Positions 6,228 through 54,726 of a stretch of DNA of 64,000 nucleotides are shown piece by piece; the first letter of the stretch is position 1, and each line of letters opens with the position of its first letter. The stretch comes from an uncultured Alphaproteobacteria bacterium (GTDB lineage Bacteria > Pseudomonadota > Alphaproteobacteria > SP197). The stretch spans positions 3,228,225 to 3,292,224 of the forward strand of contig OY282363.1 of assembly GCA_958295695.1 (NCBI GenBank). The letters are read 5' to 3'. The position numbers and the translations under genes were made by a program. The notes below the pieces were generated by a model. That model saw nothing but the letters and a program-made list of their open reading frames with translations. It was not told where the DNA came from and made no database searches.

Positions 6228-9200
6228 ATGGTCGGAACGAACGCAAAACTCGCGGCGGCGGTGGAGGCTTACTTCGCCGACCTGCGGCGTGTGCGGGCCT
6301 CGGGCGGGGCGACGGGGGAGCGGTCGAGCTACGGGCCGCTCGCGGGTCTGCTGAACGCCGTCGGCGCGACGCTCGGGCCGAAGGTGTTCTGCGTCGGGGA
6401 GCTCGCCAACCGGGGCGCGGGGCATCCCGACTTCGGCCTGTATGCGGCCAGGCAGGTGCAGCGGGGCCGTCCGCGCGAGGGGCAGGCGCCGGAGCGCGGC
6501 GCGGTCGAGGTGAAGCCGGCGGCCGACGACGCATGGCTCGCGGCGGCTTCCGATCAGGTCGGCCGCTACTGGGGCCGCTACCGGCTGGTGCTGGTGACCA
6601 ACACGCGCGACTTCGTGCTGGTGGGCGAGGACGCGGCGGGCCGCCCGGCGGCGCTGGAGAGCCTGCGGCTGGCGGACGACGCGGAGGACTTCGCGCGTCG
6701 TCTCGAACATCCGCGCGCCTTCGCCCGCGCGGTCGGGGCGAGCCTGGGCGAATATCTTGCGCGCGCCCTGTCGCACCGGGCGTCGCTGGCGGAGCCGCGG
6801 GACCTTGCGTGGCTTCTGGCGTCGCATGCTCGCGACGGACTGGCGCGCGTCGAGGCGGCGGGGGACGCGCCGGCGCTGGCGGCGGTTCGGCGGGCGCTCG
6901 AAGAGGCGCTGGGCGTGCGCTTCGAGGGGGAGCGGGGGGCGCGGTTCTTCCGCTCGACGCTGGTGCAGACGCTGTTCTACGGCGTGTTCTCCGCCTGGGT
7001 GCTGTGGGCGCGCCAGACCCCGCCGCCGACCGGTTCCTTCGACTGGCACACGGCGGTCTGGCATCTGCGCGCGCCGGTGCTGCGGGCGCTGTTCCAGCAG
7101 TTGTCCGATCCCGGCCGGCTGCAACCGCTTGGACTGGTGGAGGTGCTGGACTGGACGTCCGCCGCGCTGGACCGGGTGGACCGGGCGGCGTTCTTCTCGC
7201 GCTTCGACGAGGGCGCGGCGGTGCCCTACTTCTACGAACCGTTCCTGGAGGCGTTCGACCCCGAACTGCGCAAGCAACTCGGGGTCTGGTACACGCCCGC
7301 CGAGGTCGTCCGCTACATGGTGGCGCGGGTGGACCGGGCGTTGAAGGACGACCTGGGCGTCGCGGAGGGTCTGGCGGCGGAGAACGTCTACGTGCTGGAC
7401 CCGTGCTGCGGCACCGGGGCCTATCTGGCGGAAGTGCTGCGGCGCATCGCGGCCAACCTGCGGGGCCAGGGGCTGGGCGCGCTGGCCGGGGCGCGGGTCA
7501 AGCAGGCGGCGACGGAGCGGGTGTTCGGGTTCGAGATCATGCCGGCGCCGTTCGTGGTGGCGCATCTGCAAGTGGGGCTGGCGCTGCGGGACCTGGACGC
7601 GACGCTGGCCGGCGACGGGACGGAGCGGGCCGGGGTGTTCCTGACCAACGCGCTGACGGGCTGGGAGCCGAGGACGACCAAGCCGTTGCCATTCCCGGAA
7701 CTGGAGGAGGAGCGCGACCGGGCCGAACGGGTGAAGCGGGAGGCGCCGATCCTCGTGGTCCTGGGCAACCCGCCCTACAACGGCTTCGCCGGCATGGCGG
7801 TGGACGAGGAGCGGGAGTTGTCGGAGGCGTACCGGACGACGAAACGGGTGCGCGGCCCGGAGGGACAGGGGCTGAACGACCTCTACGTCCGCTTCTTCCG
7901 CATGGCGGAGCGGCGCATCGCCGGGAAGACGGGCCGGGGCGTGGTGTGCTTCATCTCGAACTACTCGTGGCTGGACGGGCTGTCGTTCACCGGGATGCGG
8001 GAACGCTACCTTGAGGCGTTCGACGCCATCCGCGTCGATTGCCTGAACGGGGACAAGTACAAGACCGGCAAGGTCGCGCCGGACGGGACGCCGGACCCGA
8101 GCGTGTTCTCGACGGAAGGCGACCCGGTGGGCATTCAGGTGGGGACGGCGATCGCGACCCTGGTTCGCAAGGCGGACCACGCGCCGACGGAGCGCATCGG
8201 CTTCCGCCATCTGTGGGGGCGGACGAAGCGCGAAGACCTGCTGGCGACGGCGGAGGCGGAACCGGGCGCGCTCTACGAGGCCGTCGATCCGGTCCTGCCG
8301 CTCGGTCTGCCCTTCGCGCCGGCCGTGGCGAGCGCCGAATGGTTCGGCTGGCCGGCGCTGCCCGATCTGCTTCCCGCGCACTTTCCCGGCGTCAAAACCG
8401 GCCGCAACGGCTTCCTGATCGACATCGACCTCGACCGGCTCAAGGCCCGGATCGCCGACTATTTCGACCCGGCCTTGAGCCACGAGGAGATCGCCCGGCG
8501 CTACCCGCCGGCGATGAAGAGCTTCGGACGGTCCGACGCACGGGCCGTGCGCGATGCGCTGCTGGCGCGCGGCGGGCCGCTCGAATCGGCTTTTGTCCGC
8601 CACACTTATCGCCCGTTCGACGACCGTTGGCTCTATTGGGAGGCGGGCGTCGGACTCCTCGATGGCGCGCGCGCCGCTTACAAACGGCAGATTTTCGCGG
8701 GGAATCTATGGATCGAAGCCCGTCAGCGCGACGCCAGGGAGGATTACTCGCGCGGCATGCCGGTGCGCCATCTGGCGGACAATCTCGGCAACGGGCTTTC
8801 GAGTTACTTCCCCGTCTGGCTCCTTGACGACGACCTCGGCGGCAACGGCGACGGCGCGCGGCGGGCCAATCTGAGCGAGGCGGCGCATTGCTATCTCAAG
8901 CGTCTGGGTCTCGGCGTGGAAGACCTGTTCCATCACGCGCTGGCCGTCCTGCACGACCCCGCCTACCGCGAGGCCAACGCCGGGGCGCTGCGCATGGAAT
9001 GGCCGCGCGTCCCGCTCCCCGGCTGGCCGCATGGCGAATCCGAGGGCGCGGCGGAGGCGTTGGCCGAGTCCGCCGCGCGGGGCCGCGACCTCGCCGCCCT
9101 GCTCGATCCCGAAACCCCGGTTTCCAGCGTGACGCGGGGCAACCTGCGCCCGGAGATCGCCGCCGTCGCCGTGCCCGCGACCACGCACGGGCGCAACATG

Positions 9201-46515: not shown

Positions 46516-46607
46516 GGCGGCGGACGGCTTTCTCGCCAACCCGGTCAGGTCCGGAAGGAAGCAGCCGTAACGAGTTTCAAGCCGGGTCGTTTGCCGGTCT
46601 CCCGCCA
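46516..46607 (+). ncRNA. ffs: Small SRP RNA (4.5S RNA)
   Basis: Contains the invariant SRP core GGTCAGGTCCGGAAGGAAGC followed by AGCCGTAACGAGTTTCAAGC and GGGTCGTTTGCCGGTCTCCC, typical of alphaproteobacterial 4.5S RNA. GGCGG near 46516 can pair with CCGCC near 46606 to close the helix. Ends are approximate. It lies 60 nt upstream of the dnaX start, the conserved synteny in this class. Confidence 0.93.
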
Positions 46608-46665
46608 CTGGCGAGACGCGCCGCCCGCCGCCTACCCGTGCGGGTCGAGGGACGAACGGGCACCG

Positions 46666-47748
46666 ATGAGCGAGGACGGCGCGGCCTATCGCGTCTTGGC
46701 GCGCAAACGCCGGCCGACCAGCTTCGCCGGCCTGATCGGCCAGGAGCCCCTCGTGCGCACGCCGAGCAACGCGACCGCGACCGATCGTCTGGCCCATGCC
46801 TATCCGTTGACCGGCGTCCGCGGTGTCGGCAAGACCTCGACCGCCCGGATCATCGCCCGAGCGCTCAACTGTATCGGCCGGGACGGGAACGGCGGCCCGA
46901 CGCCGGAGCTCTGCGGGGCCTGTGAGCACTGCGTCTCGATTGCCGAGGATCGCCATGTCGACGTGATCGAGATGGACGCGGCCTCGCGCACCGGCAACGA
47001 CGACGTGCACGAGCTGATCGAGAGCGTGCGCTACCGCCCGATATCGGCGCGCCACAAGGTCTCCATCATCGACGAAGTGCACATGCTCTCGAAGCAGGCC
47101 TTCAACGCGCTCCTCAAGACCCTCGAGGAGCCGCCGCCGCACGTCAAATTCGTGTTCGCGACGACCGAGGCGCGCCGGCTCCCGGTGACGGTGTTGTCGC
47201 GCTGCCAGCGTTTCGACCTGCGCCGGGTCGGGATGGAGACGCCGCAACGACGACCTCCTCAACCTCCTCCCCAAGGGCGTCGTCGCCTTCCCCGGTTCCG
47301 GCATCACCGAGAACCTTATCGACAAGGCGCGCCAGCTCGGCATCCCGGTCATGCGGGCGGCCTGAGCCGCGGCGCCATCGCGGGCCGCGTCGCTCCGTCG
47401 GCGCAGCCCGTTCATCCTTCCCGTCACGACCCGGTGCGGCAGCGCGGACAACGCCGCGCCGGTATCCCCTCGCTGCCCGCCGCGTGGATGCTCTCGCCGG
47501 CGCTTCGCGCCGTGCTCGCCGCGGCCATCGCCTCGCTCGCCGCCATTGCACCGCTCGCGTCGCCGGCGCCGGCTTCGCCGCGCACCGGCATCCGCACGGC
47601 CGTCCGCGGTCGTGGCGACACTACCGCCGGCCCCCGTGCAGGCGCGACCGTCGCCGCGTCCGGCAGCGTGCTTCGCACGACTGCCCGCGGCTCCGTCCAC
47701 GCCACCGTTCGCCGTCGCGCCTTCGGTCCATCGCACCAGCGAGGCTGA
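46666..47748 (+). pseudogene. dnaX: dnaX (DNA polymerase III gamma/tau), truncated after about 188 codons
   Basis: The first 188 codons are clean DnaX: YRVLARKRRPTSFAGLIGQE, Walker A GVRGVGKTS, zinc-finger Cys in CGACEHC, Walker B IIDEVHMLSKQAF, and sensor 1 FATTEARRLPVTVLSRC ending with QRFDLRRV at 47229. After this the frame stays open to 47748, but the protein (Pro/Arg-rich) has no DnaX homology; lid domain III and the tau region are missing. At the break another frame encodes a DUF2493 tail. DnaX is essential, so a complete copy must exist elsewhere or this locus is a rearranged duplicate. Confidence 0.86.
47243..47365 (+). pseudogene. DUF2493 (SLOG-type) C-terminal fragment
   Basis: This frame reads NDDLLNLLPKGVVAFPGSGI then TENLIDKARQLGIPVMRAA and a stop, matching the C-terminus of DUF2493 proteins (GVIVFPGSGISENLADKARKLGIPV), which are common on alphaproteobacterial plasmids and islands. 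The N-terminal two thirds are absent. It abuts the dnaX break at 47229-47243 and marks a recombination junction. Confidence 0.75.
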
Positions 47749-47752
47749 CGCC
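47366..47752. other. Low-complexity GC-rich segment
   Basis: About 390 bp of Ala/Arg/Pro-coding low-complexity sequence. Frames are open on both strands for compositional reasons; I recognise no domain. Confidence 0.45.
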
Positions 47753-47964
47753 GCGGTAACGTGTGCATCGCTCGCGCCCGCGCTCGCGGTAACGTGTGAA
47801 TGGAGAGCCATCGCCTTGAACACCGGCGCTTGCACCGCCCATCCCTGCGTTGCGGGAACATGTGTGCGGCGCCCGATTGATCGGAGGAACATGTGAGGAA
47901 GCACTCATGCGCCAAGGTAACGAACCGACCTGTGCACCAGCTCCGGTGCGCGACGTGTGAAGAA
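47753..47964. repeat. Iteron-like repeats (consensus GCGG-AAC-RTGTG)
   Basis: Six related units have their AAC (or GAC) cores at 47758, 47791, 47857, 47888, 47919 and 47952: GCGGTAACGTGTGCA, GCGGTAACGTGTGAA, GCGGGAACATGTGTG, GGAGGAACATGTGAG, AAGGTAACGAACC and GTGCGCGACGTGTGAAG. Intervals are 33, 66, 31, 31 and 33 bp, close to multiples of three helical turns, all in one orientation. This layout resembles plasmid replication iterons or a multi-site operator. Confidence 0.55.
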
Positions 47965-48275
47965 TGCCGCCGTTCGCTTGCACCGCACGCCGCACTTCGT
48001 TACCTCTGTTGTCGGGACGACAACGCGGAACGCGCTCGGAGATCGCGGACCGGTCGTCTCGCTCAAGCGCCGCGATGGCTCCAAACCCTTGCGGCGACGG
48101 CCTCCCGGGCCCGACGCGGTGTGTACGACGCGAACGCCTGTAGGACTCCAGTGGGAGCTTCTATCATCACACCCGACGCACCTAAGGTGCCCTCGCGGAC
48201 AAGCGCGCGCCTGGTCTCGCTCCACCGCCACTGAAGCGCCTTGTTCGCGCTTGCCTGTGATGGGAACCCGTCCTC
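47965..48275. other. Intergenic region between iteron-like repeats and inverted repeat
   Basis: About 310 bp. No gene with recognisable content; possibly part of an origin or transfer region together with the repeats on either side. Confidence 0.4.
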
Positions 48276-48366
48276 GTTTCGTGTGACATCTATCCGATTG
48301 ATATCATTGGGTGTTTCGTCGTGTCCCCGTCGTGTCACACGGCAAGGATCCCATGTCACACGAAAC
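48276..48366. repeat. 14-bp perfect inverted repeat around GTGTCACAC
   Basis: GTTTCGTGTGACAT at 48276-48289 and ATGTCACACGAAAC at 48353-48366 are exact reverse complements, 63 bp apart. Between them lie further related copies (GTGTTTCGTCGTGT at 48311, CGTGTCACACG at 48331). Three copies of GAAAACCG follow at about 48443, 48472 and 48483, directly before the ribbon-helix-helix gene. Possible operator or oriT. Confidence 0.6.
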
Positions 48367-48490
48367 CAACACGACGTGCCCGTGTCGGTCGCGTGAACCG
48401 GGGTTCGCGATAGGCTATGAAACCGGCGTGGAAACGCCGGAAAACCGACACCAACCGGGCCGGTCCCGTGCCGAAAACCGGAGAAAACCG

Positions 48491-48823
48491 ATGGCCGTTC
48501 AACGCTCCCAGCGCTCGATCCGGTTCTCCGACGACGAATGGGACGTCGTCGTCCGGGCCGCCGAACGCAATGACCTGACCCCCGGCGCGTTCGTCCGAGA
48601 GACGGCGACGCGCGCCGCCGCGGAGAATCTCGACCCGAGCGACGCCCAGTTGACGCCGGAACTGATCGAGCTCGTCAAGCGAACCTTCCGCGGCGTCCAC
48701 CTGCTTGCCTTCCTGAAGCGCGAGGAACTCGCCGAACTCGGCAAGGAGGACGACATCGAGCGTGCCGCCAAGGCAGCGAAGGCCGCACAATCCGACACGC
48801 TCGGTGCGGAGGATTCGCATTGA
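48491..48823 (+). CDS. Ribbon-helix-helix (CopG/MobC-like) protein
   Basis: 110-residue protein. Residues 1-45 (SQRSIRFSDDEWDVVVRAAE, then RNDLTPGAFVRETATRAAAE) match a ribbon-helix-helix DNA-binding domain like those of relaxosome accessory (MobC-type) and plasmid-control proteins. The C-terminus is charged and helical. The ATG at 48491 is preceded by the GAAAACCG repeats, candidate autoregulatory sites. The presence of a MobF relaxase nearby supports a role in mobilisation, but it is on the opposite strand. Confidence 0.7.
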   Translation: MAVQRSQRSIRFSDDEWDVVVRAAERNDLTPGAFVRETATRAAAENLDPSDAQLTPELIELVKRTFRGVHLLAFLKREELAELGKEDDIERAAKAAKAAQSDTLGAEDSH

Positions 48824-48944: not shown

Positions 48945-50093
48945 ATGCAAAAAGACATGCACTACTACGGGACCTACGCGATGGCCCGCGCTGCCGGTCT
49001 GGCACCGAAGGTTTGCCAGACCATCGCGACGGCCGCCGAGTTCGTCGACGACAACGGGGATAGGGAGACGATCGAATTTCCGGACGGCGGCCGCCTCGAC
49101 TTCGTGCCCACGGCACACCATGCCGCGGACATCAAGAATATAGACCGTCACGATCAACGCCTCATCTGGGTGCCGTTTCACTTTATTCCGGGCAACCAGG
49201 GCAGGACGATGTCCGAACGCTTCCTGTGCCGGAAGGACAGCGGGATTGCCCGCGAGATGATCGACCACAATCTGTCTCTAGCCGACAAGCCATTCGGACT
49301 CCACCTCGTCGGCATCACCGCGCACGTTTACGCCGATACCTTCTCACACTACGGCTTTTCCGGAGTGAGTTCGCGCTGGAACAGGATCGATTCATCGTCG
49401 TTCGATCTCGTCGATGTCGATCCGGAAATCCTGGACTACATCCGGAAGAAGGAAAGCCGTTTCCGAGAAAAATACGGCGAGGAGGCAGGCGAGCTTCTCA
49501 ACATTCGCAATCCCGAGAGATGGAATGTCGGTCTCTCCAGCGCGATCTCGAGACTCAGGGATCGTTTCGTCAGCGATGCGGCCGAGATATTGTCCGGCGC
49601 GCTGGGTCACGGCGCGGCTCTTACGTATCCCGATCGTCCATACCTTCGATGGCGGTTCGATTACGAATATCCCCGGAGACGCTCATCCGGCCCGCGGGAC
49701 AATCCTGCTACGTTTCTTGAAGGCTGCGAGAAGCTGCACAATATGTTCCGTCAACTGGGTGTTCCGGGCGAGGGCGGCGGGCAGGACGAGGGACGGCCTT
49801 TCCAGGATATTCGAGCTTCGGTCGCTCGAATCCTCGCGACGCAGGCATCCCGTGAAGGCCGGGAAAAAGCGTGGAAAGACGCCGCCAGGGCCGGCGAACT
49901 GTTCGTCGCGGCGGAGGCCATTCTCCCCTACCAAGGCGCCCAGTGGAAGAGAGGGCTTGACGGCTTGAGAAGGGCCACGGATTCGCGCAAGGCTCTCGAC
50001 AAGCCGATCTTCCGGTTTTTCCAGGCGGCCGCGGCACACCGAACCTTCATTCTTCGCGATCTTCTGCCGAGACACGGCCTCGTGGTCGATTGA
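48945..50093 (+). CDS. DUF6765-like protein
   Basis: 382-residue protein starting MQKDMHYYGTYAMARAAGL, the signature of the DUF6765 family. HLVGITAHVYADTFSHYGFSG and TAHHAADIKNID supply closely spaced His and Asp residues, similar in spirit to zinc-dependent phospholipase C/S1-P1 nuclease folds, so a metal-dependent hydrolase is possible. No signal peptide is evident. The GGGAGAAGG ribosome site supports ATG 48945 over the TTG at 48921. Its last 166 bp overlap the 3' end of the relaxase frame on the other strand. Function unknown. Confidence 0.75.
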   Translation: MQKDMHYYGTYAMARAAGLAPKVCQTIATAAEFVDDNGDRETIEFPDGGRLDFVPTAHHAADIKNIDRHDQRLIWVPFHFIPGNQGRTMSERFLCRKDSGIAREMIDHNLSLADKPFGLHLVGITAHVYADTFSHYGFSGVSSRWNRIDSSSFDLVDVDPEILDYIRKKESRFREKYGEEAGELLNIRNPERWNVGLSSAISRLRDRFVSDAAEILSGALGHGAALTYPDRPYLRWRFDYEYPRRRSSGPRDNPATFLEGCEKLHNMFRQLGVPGEGGGQDEGRPFQDIRASVARILATQASREGREKAWKDAARAGELFVAAEAILPYQGAQWKRGLDGLRRATDSRKALDKPIFRFFQAAAAHRTFILRDLLPRHGLVVD

Positions 50094-52996
50094 ACGATGC
50101 CCACAGGCAAGGAATCGGAAAATGTCGCAGAGCGATGATGGAGCGTCCGATGCGGGCTCGCTATGGATGTTGTGTCTTTTTCGCCAGGAATCCCGAGCCT
50201 CTCGTGTTGTCTCCTGGAAAACTTCCAACGTGTTGATTGAGTAGTCCGAAAAACTTTTCCTGTCTCGCTCAGCTCGCCGGTCGCGGTTTCCAGTCTCTCG
50301 CGGAGCGCCTTGGCGTCGTCGGTGACCAGCTCCGCCCTGTGCCGGGCGCGGCCGATCTCGACGTAGAAGCTCTTTTGCGTCGTCAGGTGCGGATGGTTCG
50401 CCTCCATGACGGCGATGACGTTGTCGACCGTGCGCCCCTGGAACGCATGCACGGTAGACGCCCAGGCGTGATCCAGGTGTCGGAGTTGCGGGTCCTTACG
50501 CCCGAGTTCGAGCCGCCGCCCGTCCTCGAGCCGGAAGGCGACGCGGTTCCCCCGAACCGACGAGACCTCGGCGGTGTGGCTGTTGACGAGGCCGAACCGG
50601 GCGTCGTTCCGGGTCCAGCGGATGCGGTCTCCGGCGCGCAGCGCGATCCCCTCGGCGCGGTAGACCTCGACGGCGCCGCGCCTGCCGCCCACGCGGCGGG
50701 GCCGCCAGGGAACCGGTCCTCTTCCTTCCCCTTCCAGGATCACTATTCCTCTCGCGCGATCGACGCGGGCGATCCGGCGTTCCTCGCCCTTCTCGACTCC
50801 GAGACTCTTGTAGGCGCGGTGGAACGCCACCACGTCGCCGGGCGCGTAGTTGGCGGCGAGCGCCTTCTCCGCGCCGGTGTAGCCATATGACACCAGCCGT
50901 TCGACATCGAGAGCCGCCCCATGGATCGCGCCGTCGCGGGCGAGACGTTCGCGGATATGGCCGTTGACGGCCTGCCGCAGTTCATGGCTCGGCGCCATCA
51001 GTCCGGCGTTCTCGCGTTCGGACGCCGAGAGTCGGAGCCAGCGCGCGGCGGCCGCGCCGGCGAGATTGTCCGCCTTCACCTCCGCGACGTTGGACCCGAG
51101 CTTCTCGAACGCCTTGCGCACATCGCCCGCGAGGCTCGCCTCGACGGCGGCCTTCAAACCCGCGTCGCGCTGGCGCATGATCTCGTCCATGGTCGCCGTC
51201 TTCATGCCCGCCCGCTGCAACTGCGCGAAGGGCTTGCCGGCATCGACCGCATCGAGCTGCTTCTCGTCGCCGACCAGCACGACCCGGGGAATGCGCAGGG
51301 TGTTGGCGATCCGCAGGAGATCGCGGGCCTGGACGGTGGAGGCGAGCGAACCCTCGTCCACGACCAGCACCGTCTTCTTGAACGCGGCGCGCATCTGGCG
51401 CTCGCCCCTGTCCGTGAGCCGTCCCTGAGCGACGCCGGCGTTGCGGGCGAGGAACCGTTGCAGGGTCTCGCTTCGGATGCCGGCTTCGTTCTCCAGGGTG
51501 CGCGCGGCCGAGGCCGACGGGGCCAAGCCCTTGACCTCGAACCCGCGCTTCTCCAGGAGCGCGCGGGCGCGGTTCAGCATCGCGGTCTTGCCGGTCCCCG
51601 CGTAGCCTTGGACGCCCACCGTCCGGTCGCTCGAAGACAGGATCAGCTTCACCGCGTCCTTCTGCCCGGGCGTGAGGGGGCCGTTGCGCAGCACCTTGCC
51701 GACGGCGCGGCCGCGCATGACGGACGCGCCCCGGTCCCGGCCACTCCGCATCAGGGCGACGGTCTCCTTCTCGTCGGCGACCGCCTTGTCGGTGGTGAGC
51801 AACTGCCCGGGAACGGGCAGGTTCGCGGCGTGCAACGTCCCGGCCTTCTCCAATCGTGTTACCGCGTCTTCGGCCTCGCCGATCGCCACCGCGCCGGGAC
51901 GCCAGGCGAGCATGGCGGCCAGCAGGTCGGTGCGCGAGAACACCGCCTCGCGCTCGGAGAGATGCGCCACCGCCCACGCCGCGGCCCGGTCGGCCTCGGC
52001 AACCTTCCCCGAACGCTGCCGGTCGTCGGAAGGACCCGTAGCGTCACGGCCCGCGTCCTTGCCGGCCTCCCGTGGCACGGCTTCCGCGGCAAGCGTCCGC
52101 GCGTCGAAGCCGAGACCGGCTGCTTGTTTTTCCCAACTCTGCCGAAGTGCTTCCTTGTCGACGTCGCGCTTGTGGGCGCGGGTCATCAGCGCCGCGCGCT
52201 GGGCGAGGCTCTGATTCCCGGCAGTGTCGCCGGGACCGTGCTTCGCCATCGCCGCCTCGATCTCGGCGCGCCGCGTCGAGAACGCCTCGACGGTCGCGCG
52301 CGGAACCCCGGCGATCTCGAAGCGCCCGTCGGCATGGGTCTTCTCGATGCGGTAGCCGAGCGCTCCCAACTCCCGCGCCAGTTCGCTCCGGTACATGGCG
52401 CCGACCGGCATCTTCGAGGCGTAGAGCTTCTCGTTCGCCATCGTGCGCCACTTGCCGTCCTCGCCCCGGACCATGTTGGCGATCACCGCATGGGTGTGGA
52501 GTTGCGGATCGAGGTTGCGCGAGGTGTCGTGGCGGAAGGTCGCGGCGACCATGCCCTGGCCGCCGGCGCGGACCATGCGTCCGGTCTCCGGGTCCTTCAT
52601 CCGGGTCTCGACGACGTTGGCCTCGATCCATGCGAGGGTGCGCGTCACCGCCCGGTCGTGCGCGGCGACGACGCGCCCGTCGCCGCCGATCAGGGCCGCG
52701 AGAGAGACGGACTTGGGAGCGGAAAAGGTGACGTCTCGTCCGGGCCGGTGATGGACGTTGCCGTCCCTGTCCTTGCGCCCGAGCCGGCGGCCCGTTCCGT
52801 CCGGGACCTCTCCCGCCAGCACGTCCTTGAACGTGTCCGCGTCGACGGGTCCTTCGAGGCCGAGCGCCTCGGCGCCCTTGCCGAACCAGGCGCTGCCTTC
52901 CTTGTGGGCGGGATCGTCCCTGGCGTAGTAGCCGTCGCGCTCGTAGTAGGTGACGCCTTGGGCGGGCGAGGCGACCGCGCCGATGGAGGCGACCAT
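49928..52996 (-). CDS. MobF-family conjugative relaxase/helicase (TraA/TrwC-like), odd C-terminus
   Basis: 1022-residue relaxase. The N-terminal nicking domain has paired tyrosines Tyr17-Tyr18 and Tyr23-Tyr24 (GVTYYERDGYY) and the metal-binding histidines His156, His167 and His169 (FRHDTS, QLHTHAVIAN). The helicase domain has Walker A VQGYAGTGKTAML, Walker B VLVVDEGSLAS and late motif STVHAFQGRTVDNV. Recognisable homology ends near SETGKVFR (about 50250); the last 107 residues are antisense to the DUF6765 gene and unlike relaxases, so the original 3' end was probably lost. It lies 1 nt after the coupling-protein remnant. Confidence 0.86.
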   Translation of the reverse strand: MVASIGAVASPAQGVTYYERDGYYARDDPAHKEGSAWFGKGAEALGLEGPVDADTFKDVLAGEVPDGTGRRLGRKDRDGNVHHRPGRDVTFSAPKSVSLAALIGGDGRVVAAHDRAVTRTLAWIEANVVETRMKDPETGRMVRAGGQGMVAATFRHDTSRNLDPQLHTHAVIANMVRGEDGKWRTMANEKLYASKMPVGAMYRSELARELGALGYRIEKTHADGRFEIAGVPRATVEAFSTRRAEIEAAMAKHGPGDTAGNQSLAQRAALMTRAHKRDVDKEALRQSWEKQAAGLGFDARTLAAEAVPREAGKDAGRDATGPSDDRQRSGKVAEADRAAAWAVAHLSEREAVFSRTDLLAAMLAWRPGAVAIGEAEDAVTRLEKAGTLHAANLPVPGQLLTTDKAVADEKETVALMRSGRDRGASVMRGRAVGKVLRNGPLTPGQKDAVKLILSSSDRTVGVQGYAGTGKTAMLNRARALLEKRGFEVKGLAPSASAARTLENEAGIRSETLQRFLARNAGVAQGRLTDRGERQMRAAFKKTVLVVDEGSLASTVQARDLLRIANTLRIPRVVLVGDEKQLDAVDAGKPFAQLQRAGMKTATMDEIMRQRDAGLKAAVEASLAGDVRKAFEKLGSNVAEVKADNLAGAAAARWLRLSASERENAGLMAPSHELRQAVNGHIRERLARDGAIHGAALDVERLVSYGYTGAEKALAANYAPGDVVAFHRAYKSLGVEKGEERRIARVDRARGIVILEGEGRGPVPWRPRRVGGRRGAVEVYRAEGIALRAGDRIRWTRNDARFGLVNSHTAEVSSVRGNRVAFRLEDGRRLELGRKDPQLRHLDHAWASTVHAFQGRTVDNVIAVMEANHPHLTTQKSFYVEIGRARHRAELVTDDAKALRERLETATGELSETGKVFRTTQSTRWKFSRRQHERLGIPGEKDTTSIASPHRTLHHRSATFSDSLPVGIVQSTTRPCLGRRSRRMKVRCAAAAWKNRKIGLSRALRESVALLKPSSPLFHWAPW

Positions 52997-52997
52997 C

Positions 52998-54044
52998 TCA
53001 GATCCGGATCGGCCCGCTCGCCGGCTTCCCGTCGCCGGGGGCGGAGCCGTCCCGCGCGTCCGGCCGGTTCGCAACCGGGGAACTGTCGCTCGCGTCCCCA
53101 CCGCTGCCTTCCCTGGAACGTTCTTCTCCGGGGCTCGGCCGGAAGGCCTCCGCGTTCTCTCCGCCCGCATCGGCCGTCGTCGGTAACGGGTCGATCTCCT
53201 CCGGCCAGCCTTCGGCGGCGCGGCTCATTGCCCATGTTTCGAGATCCCGTTCCACCCAATCCGCCGCCGTCGGGTCGGGTTCCCACAAGTCGACCGCGGC
53301 CTCCGCGTCGTGCGCCGGCCCGGTCGCGTCCTTCGTCCCGCCCGGCTTTCCCTTTGCGGCCTTCGAACCCGGTCGGGCGGCCTCGCGATCGGCTTCCCCG
53401 GCGCCGGCTTCCCCTTCCGCCCTCGGCACGAACCGCTCGGCGACCTTGGGGCGTTTCGCGCACAGCAGCTTGATTCGCGCGACCGGCCACGCGCCGGGGA
53501 GCTTGAGGTAGCCGGCGAGGCTGTCGAGACGGGCGATCTCGGCCGGCAGCACCGGCAGACGCGGCGCGCACCGGAGTTGGCGGGCGGAGAGCGGTTCGCC
53601 GCCGCGCGGGCGCCACCCGCGCTTGAGCCTGCCGCCGGCGTAGTGGAGCGCGGCGAGCGCGACGACGGCGAGGCCGATACCGATCCCCAATCCTAGCAGG
53701 GCCGCGTTCAGGAGGTCGCCGATGATGCGCTCGCGCAATGCGAGCAGCGGCCGGTGGCCGGCGATGGCGCCGAGGGTCACGGTCTCGGTTCTTCCGTCCG
53801 CATGCCGTATCTCCTTGGGCCGGTGGGGGCTCAGGCCGGCATCGATGAGGGTCTCGGCGAGCACGAGCATACCGACGGCGTACCACTGGTGGGCGGTGGT
53901 GGTGCGCGCGGCCTTCCAGGCGGCGGCGCTGGCGGCGCCGATCAGGGCGGCGGCGAGAACCATGCCGACGAGCCGCCTCCAGGTGCGCAGGCCGCGGGCG
54001 GTGGCGCGGACGCCGCGCCCGGTATCGCCCCCGGCCCCGGTCAC
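52998..54044 (-). CDS. Coupling-protein (TraD-like) remnant lacking the ATPase core
   Basis: 348 residues from a GTG at 54044. The N-terminus has two membrane segments (LVGMVLAAALIGAASAAAW and LLNAALLGLGIGIGLAVVAL) around a periplasmic loop, as in TraD-type coupling proteins of elements with TraA relaxases. Normally a 400-residue RecA-like ATPase follows; here the chain goes from GGRLKRGWRPRGGEPL directly to LDSLAGYLKLPGAWPVARIK, a segment typical of the region near or within coupling proteins, and then to an acidic disordered tail. No Walker A or B is present. It appears to be an in-frame internal deletion. Identification of the family is by layout and is moderate. Confidence 0.5.
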   Translation of the reverse strand: MTGAGGDTGRGVRATARGLRTWRRLVGMVLAAALIGAASAAAWKAARTTTAHQWYAVGMLVLAETLIDAGLSPHRPKEIRHADGRTETVTLGAIAGHRPLLALRERIIGDLLNAALLGLGIGIGLAVVALAALHYAGGRLKRGWRPRGGEPLSARQLRCAPRLPVLPAEIARLDSLAGYLKLPGAWPVARIKLLCAKRPKVAERFVPRAEGEAGAGEADREAARPGSKAAKGKPGGTKDATGPAHDAEAAVDLWEPDPTAADWVERDLETWAMSRAAEGWPEEIDPLPTTADAGGENAEAFRPSPGEERSREGSGGDASDSSPVANRPDARDGSAPGDGKPASGPIRI

Positions 54045-54597
54045 GGCGCGCCCGCTCCCATATCCAACCGCGCCGGGCTCGGGCCGCGCCGGGCGGCGAA
54101 GACCCGAATGGCGTCCCGCGGAGCTTGCATGCTGTTGACCATGAATAGGAACATAAAAAGAACATATGGCCTCGGCAACGGCCTTCGATTGCGTCTTCCA
54201 TACAAATGGCGACAGGCTCGCGCCGGCATGCGCTCCGCTACGGGAAAAAGTTTCGCGAACCCGCCGCGTGGACGCGATTCTCCCCATGCGGGACGCCTCG
54301 CCGGCTGGCTCGGATACGACTCGGCGAGGCTGCGCCACGCCGTCGTTCCCAAGCGTAAACCGTCGAAGCGGAGGCTGTGCTATACGCTGTCCCAGACTCC
54401 CGGCGCGACCCTCGCCGGCATTTCCGAGATGGCGCGCCGGTATCTGCCCGAGGCCATACTCCGGTACGAGGGCGGCGCGGCGTCCGAGAGTCTCCGTATC
54501 CTCCGCGCGCGGCGATTCCATGAAGCCCGTGGTCCATGACCGAGGCCGACTCCCGGTCGACATCGCCCGCAAGACCTCTGACACTGAAGAAGGAGAA
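54045..54597. other. Intergenic segment with unassigned open frame
   Basis: About 550 bp. A plus-strand frame runs through it to 54539 (segments KRKPSKRRLCYTLSQTPG and GISEMARRYLPEAILRYEGG), but I recognise no family and no ribosome site, and local GC is lower around 54140-54200. It could be a remnant of the element's left part. Confidence 0.35.
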
Positions 54598-54726
54598 ATG
54601 GCCGTACTACGGGAGGGCACGGATATCGTGGTCGAACGCGTCGAAATCCCGACCCGCCACGGCTTTGTCGGCGCCGACATGAGCTGGAGCTTCACTCACC
54701 TCGACCTCGGCGGCACATTCTGCTAG
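54598..54726 (+). CDS. Possible 42-residue small protein
   Basis: ATG 54598 is preceded by a strong ribosome site (AGAAGGAGAA). The product MAVLREGTDIVVERVEIPTR continues to HGFVGADMSWSFTHL and ends GGTFC. No family is recognised. It lies 50 bp upstream of vapB on the same strand. The support is only the ribosome site and plausible composition. Confidence 0.35.
   Translation: MAVLREGTDIVVERVEIPTRHGFVGADMSWSFTHLDLGGTFC

Follow-up and report, generated by a model that had tools for sequence, protein, structure and literature searches.

A traD gene with its ATPase core deleted in frame beside a MobF relaxase gene in an uncultured alphaproteobacterium

The short traD gene and its relaxase

The window, a 64,000 nucleotide stretch of DNA from an uncultured Alphaproteobacteria bacterium, contains a short traD gene, copy A, directly before a MobF/TrwC relaxase-helicase gene (Table 1). 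The 348 codons of copy A, counted from its GTG, are uninterrupted and include no Walker motifs, and a single base (52997) lies between its stop and the ATG of the relaxase; the sequence-only reading was right about the open frame, the missing motifs and the 1-nt gap. The start of copy A was chosen by alignment with the full-length copy D and not from the mechanical ORF, which extends further 5' to a GTG at 54695 and has 565 aa. The relaxase, previously called TraA, scores 294.7 bits against PF08751 (TrwC) and 298.7 against NCBIfam MobF NF041492 (cut-off 100), and is of the MobF/TrwC rather than the Ti-type TraA kind. It is homologous to the other copies up to about residue 909, the C-terminal tail being unique to the relaxase of copy A.

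Table 1. Positions of the short traD gene, its parts and neighbours, and the related traD copies of the same genome
Feature	Position	Strand	Remarks
Short traD (copy A)	window 52998..54044	-	348 aa, GTG start; from alignment with copy D
Predicted TM helix 1	window 53916..53972	-	residues 25-43; hydropathy; AlphaFold helix 8-48, block pLDDT 62-78 from residue 11
Predicted TM helix 2	window 53646..53702	-	residues 115-133, glycine-rich (G118, G120, G122, G124); hydropathy; AlphaFold helix 98-143
Deletion junction (QLR/C-A)	window 53565..53573	-	alignment read by eye
Retained TrwB-like domain end	window 53466..53555	-	residues 164-193; profile positions 357-386 of 387
MobF/TrwC relaxase-helicase	window 49928..52996	-	1022 aa, ATG start
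Upstream region of copy A	window 54045..54306	-	262 bp with 97% identity to the copy C leader; unlike the leader of B, D, F and H, which has a DotA remnant
Copy B	C1:963290-964315		short, open, 84% identical (aa) to A
Copy C	C1:858635-859582		short
Copy D	C1:891516-893681		full length, 722 aa

Only the residues of the retained domain end have a Pfam match in copy A, to the last 30 positions of TrwB_AAD_bind (PF10412; 13.7 bits, E 0.03, below cut-off). With NCBIfam, residues 165-208 match the end of TraD_Ftype at 22.1 bits, far below the cut-off. In a genome-wide profile search of the window's own genome, PF10412 had no match at the short loci and a single match overall, to copy D, which itself has transmembrane (TM) helices.

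The AlphaFold model of copy A, made from four sequences, has a mean pLDDT of 53. Residues 21-130 reach a block pLDDT of 76-92 and are modelled as a TM helix, a loop domain with a helix and a hairpin, and a second TM helix, and residues 144-348 are mostly below 50. A Foldseek search of the PDB gave no match at E<=0.001.

The deletion seen against full-length copies

The genome to which the window belongs (G000; 3.45 Mb, 2 contigs) has five homologue matches at four loci, those of copies A to D. A second MAG from an uncultured Alphaproteobacteria bacterium (OY282368.1, here G061) has the full copies G (747 aa) and H (708 aa), together with a short copy of 343 aa, F, which lies on a contig of 48 kb. 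Huge repeat-rich frames of 2178 aa (L040) and 3641 codons (L101) are also found on the contig bearing copy F; these are perhaps one gene.

Copy D is an intact paralogue; query residues 1-165 match one of its ends and residues 145-348 the other. It scores 451.9 bits against PF10412 and 464.3 bits against TIGR02759 TraD_Ftype (below the cut-off of 521), and aligns to TrwB (1gl6/1e9r) over residues 177-567. Relative to D, the short copies are without about 368 residues (about 159-526 of D), so that Walker A, Walker B and the all-alpha domain are gone, while the two TM helices, the TrwB-like domain end and the tail are kept. Copy A aligns with D as the membrane part of a coupling protein (T4CP) fused to the end of the ATPase domain and a C-terminal tail, and is a derivative of an F-type/TrwB-like T4CP. 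That the ATPase core has been deleted in frame, as originally proposed, is seen against D.

The junction is at an identical codon position in the alignment of copies A, B, C and F, the F junction agreeing with the others codon for codon. In full copy H the sequence GGCGC is present at both deletion borders, and the in-frame deletion probably took place at a short microhomology. One base near the junction is common to all four short copies and absent from every full copy. This and the identical codon position favour one deletion event followed by recombination. Separate deletions in F and in A, B and C would account for the trees, which place F with the full copies whichever half is used, but are not favoured against these two shared features of the junction.

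An assembly deletion had been raised as a possibility. The assemblies are of the MAG type and the cassettes are repeated and similar, which might invite a mis-join removing the core at one locus. However, the same junction is present at four loci in two assemblies, and A and B are only 84% identical in amino acids, which makes such an artefact very unlikely indeed.

The frames of A, B and F are undisrupted. In copy C, an uninterrupted frame of 313 codons that includes both TM helices ends 1 nt 5' of the relaxase. Only the usual start (L007, about 8626-8650) is shifted, a G run there having one base too many. This extra base may reflect an assembly slip in the homopolymer or else a genuine change. 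Copy C was at one point regarded as a frameshifted pseudogene; this has been partly withdrawn in view of the open 313-codon frame, only the start being displaced.

Distribution of the short form

The query (P0001) matched three of the 16 genomes of the order: G000, G007 and G014, where the match runs off the contig end. In the class sample there were matches in 10 of 385 genomes, with only five first-look candidates scored in many of them. Outside G000 these comprise 13 genes, of which 11 are in frames of 597-755 codons and two (248 and 308 codons) run into contig ends. Among 84,980 species genomes, at least three loci were found in at least two records; the matches listed are all full length and do not include F. 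No short form was matched in 72,556 plasmid records, and none of 40 pattern matches in viral contigs was confirmed. No precedent for a T4CP without an ATPase appeared among the open-access papers listed by literature searches.

G007, which belongs to the genus of G000, has a 215-aa homologue that is restricted to the membrane part (E 1.9e-7) and overlaps the start of its relaxase by 1 nt. That relaxase is 67% identical to that of copy A over 416 aligned residues, its gene being cut by the contig end. PF10412 has no match in the about 500 contigs of G007. Full length is therefore the rule, and in these searches the short form was found only in G000, G061 and, as another form, G007. Homologues of the same length widespread beside relaxases had been named as the observation that would point to a distinct family; in the searches made, short forms are confined to these three genomes.

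The relaxases beside the traD copies

The relaxases of A, B and C are open (964-1022 aa) and start 1 nt after the short traD, as does that of F (961 aa), and the junction is the same for full and short copies. That of A is an intact MobF relaxase; the YY and HTH motifs are present in B, C, D, F and G and readable in A. Nine relaxase matches were counted in G000. Of the five long ones, four adjoin A, B, C and D and the fifth, E, has no traD. When 20 relaxase loci were compared, a tightly placed coupling-protein frame was present at five, short in A, B and C, full in D and membrane-only in G007. Within the 1.5 kb flank it was absent from the other 15, namely E and 14 remoter loci in G001, G004 and G008.

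The relaxase beside H (L021:5581-8825) is interrupted after residue 220, with the match resuming about 1.2 kb on. This locus is the reverse of the short cassettes, with traD open and the relaxase broken. Some genus-mates are rich in MobF relaxase-helicase matches, with 16 in G004 and 13 in G008, some of which are fragments; G001, G004 and G008 have one weak PF10412 match each. In these three genomes the relaxases have proliferated and TrwB-type coupling proteins are nearly absent.

Origin of the cassettes

Full copy G sits downstream of an IncI/T4BSS-type conjugation cluster in G061. The cluster includes DotC/TraI (PF16932, 189.9 bits), a DotB/TraJ-like ATPase (233.4 bits, below its cut-off), DotH (PF12293, 150.4 bits), DotA/TraY (245.2 bits, cut-off 100) and a DsbG-like protein, with TraO/DotG and TraQ weak. 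In L099 and L020 of this genome, a MobF relaxase and an F-type-like TraD accompany a cluster of the IncI/T4BSS type. A DotA/TraY leftover (residues about 599-657) is directly upstream of traD in D, F and H, and weakly in B. Given these leftovers and the position of G, the traD-relaxase cassettes look like pieces of an IncI/T4BSS-like ICE.

A tblastn search with nine cluster proteins, covering 351,213 bases of G000 when overlaps are counted, found only a DotA leftover. PF03135 has no match in G000 or G061, and PF19044 none in G000, G061 or G007. An earlier conclusion that these three genomes have no secretion system was withdrawn, as G061 is blank for both profiles despite the cluster beside G; the two profiles therefore miss the IncI/T4BSS-like type. 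A search for an oriT among the inverted repeats that precede A, D and F gave none in common, and a promoter scan found no promoter.

Other genes lie around the cassettes. A dnaX-like frame (PF13177) at 46591-48813 of the window loses its similarity near 47230, at the beginning of a block (about 47240 to 48813) which contains a weak NikA-like RHH gene and recurs about 6 kb beyond the relaxases of B and C, with a short piece of it near D. Between 54777 and 60318 there is a FitA-like antitoxin (PF22513) followed by an apparent PIN toxin, and a type I restriction-like set with a Fic-like gene between the methylase-like and specificity-like frames; the toxin and the restriction-like set were assigned by reading only.

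With such an origin, the short traD may be a fading remnant that does nothing as a protein, the cassettes being broken pieces of an ICE. Its frame would then be open because the deletion is recent, because of exchange with full copies, and because translation of the relaxase is aided via the 1-nt junction. The DotA/TraY leftovers, the displaced start of copy C and the likeness of the 1-nt junction in full and short copies all agree with this.

Selection and recombination

In the register of A, B, F and C there are no stops, and all seven of the aligned tails are the same length modulo 3. Omega is below 1, with a value that depends on the method. By codon ML, omega for the membrane part (164 codons) is 0.170 on short branches and 0.085 on full-length ones (LRT for short versus 1, 40.9; short versus full, 3.7). 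For the tail (176 codons) the values are 0.43 and 0.30 (LRT 14.6 and 1.4). On the tips A and B, without C, omega is 0.19 for the membrane part (LRT 16.9) and 0.43 for the tail (10.3). With C added, the membrane part (148 codons) gives 0.19 for A and B (LRT 6.2), 0.11 for C (11.9) and 0.10 for F (1.6), and the tail gives 0.59 (2.3), 0.25 (14.5) and 0.34 (2.4), respectively. The relaxase tips beside the short copies A, B, C and F have an omega of 0.095, compared with 0.092 for other branches.

Counting methods show weaker constraint than codon ML. By Nei-Gojobori the membrane part has values of 0.46-0.55 for short pairs and 0.18-0.33 for pairs of full copies, and the pairwise A-B omega is 0.48 in the membrane part and 0.50 in the tail. 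Between A and B, 14 of the 28 changes in the membrane part are non-synonymous, where a fraction of 0.68 is expected (P 0.034), as are 38 out of 57 in the tail (P 0.34). Between A and C the counts are 18 out of 38 (P 0.006) and 38 out of 64 (P 0.046), and between B and C 9 out of 16 (P 0.22) and 40 out of 63 (P 0.16). The pairs in these simple counts are not independent. Taken together, the membrane part of the short copies is somewhat constrained, with omega between 0.1 and 0.55 depending on the method, and the tail is less so; the short branches look more relaxed than the full ones.

There has been recombination among the copies: the relaxase of A has a near-zero branch, and F falls with full copies as noted above. 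Some of the constraint may therefore have been imported by gene conversion, and recombination blurs the choice between a remnant and a retained anchor. This exchange, and an A-B tail that is near neutral by counts, are as expected of a gene that is fading. On the other hand, the membrane part is constrained on the short branches, A and B keep the frame with 16% of their residues different, and a separate membrane-only form occupies the same position in G007. A retained anchor or adaptor that needs a motor in trans is favoured, if with a little less than even confidence, and the remnant is nearly as likely.

What the short protein may do

The nucleotide-binding domain (NBD) is the motif that defines T4CPs, according to PMC7431656, and this domain, with Walker A and B, is missing from copy A. 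The all-alpha domain falls within the stretch deleted relative to D and TrwB. The N-terminal transmembrane domain is present as a prediction from hydropathy and AlphaFold, and sequence comparison shows descent from a T4CP gene adjoining a relaxase. By its NBD, copy A is to be classed not as a T4CP but as a deletion derivative of one, and on its own the short protein cannot pump DNA. The requirement for a coupling protein in trans, which the sequence-only reading had foreseen, fits the presence of full-length D in the same genome and the lack of DNA transfer that a portion of PMC7434980 describes for T4CPs without a working NBD.

The likeness to F-type TraD and R388 TrwB, which are VirD4-type T4CPs, is one of descent, through the scores of copy D and its alignment to TrwB. 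It extends to the place of the gene directly before a MobF relaxase and to the pair of TM helices that flank a loop at the N-terminus; the short form differs in having neither the NBD nor the all-alpha domain. The nearest working analogue is a small two-TM anchor such as TraI of pIP501, a stand-alone protein that passages of PMC12857230 and PMC7434980 propose as the anchor of TraJ, a T4CP without a TMD. Here, however, the anchor would be a T4CP deletion derivative, and the only PF10412 motor of G000, copy D, has its own TM helices. A search of G000 with PF10412 only found no TMD-less T4CP partner. Another relaxase-linked membrane protein is the MobB-type relaxosome protein of RSF1010, which helps mobilisation. 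The short TraD resembles it in its linkage to a relaxase, but the two are not known to be related in origin.

It is possible to outline how a retained anchor would have come about. A traD-relaxase cassette, apparently derived from an ICE, has lost the ATPase core and all-alpha domain of traD by in-frame deletion, and the shortened gene would then have been retained and copied together with its relaxase. Its product would still enter the inner membrane as the membrane domain of a T4CP, which in the case of TrwB localises alone to the membrane poles, as a part of PMC7431656 reports. The tail may contact the relaxosome, or the periplasmic loop the transfer channel, so that the relaxase would be docked and transfer would be powered in trans by full-length D or a co-resident ICE. 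The product might act alongside a T4CP or within mixed T4CP oligomers. Docking with a motor in trans is favoured because of the linkage to open relaxase genes and the constraint on the membrane part. The suggestion of a new short relaxosome anchor gains moderate support from this constraint and from the separate 215-aa membrane-only homologue of G007.

The same membrane domain could instead serve as a dominant-negative brake, the short protein joining mixed TraD oligomers or blocking the channel, and so lowering the transfer of a resident or incoming ICE to the advantage of the cassette or the host. Excerpts of PMC7434980 assign oligomerisation and contact with VirB10 to the membrane domain of T4CPs, a chimeric T4CP made the transfer of R388 and of pKM101 an order of magnitude lower in an experiment described in part of PMC7431656, and short and full copies share one genome. 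Tight linkage to a relaxase is unnecessary for a brake, however, and G007 has no PF10412 match to be blocked. Such a role is considered improbable.

A wider suggestion, tentative and rather doubtful, can be made. Motor-less coupling proteins may be a functional class in this genus, derivatives of TraD in which the deletion has spared the membrane domain that docks on the T4SS and the tail that serves the relaxosome. They would hitchhike as a cassette together with a MobF relaxase, and a related ICE would supply the ATPase that they borrow or modulate. The 215-aa form of G007 would be another case, shortened separately. The motor is what defines T4CPs, and a conserved derivative made of membrane part and tail would, if true, mean that docking has been separated from pumping in nature. 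It would also show small mobilisable cassettes arising from ICEs and exploiting them. If the short traD is a mere remnant, it still records how an ICE decays into relaxase cassettes.
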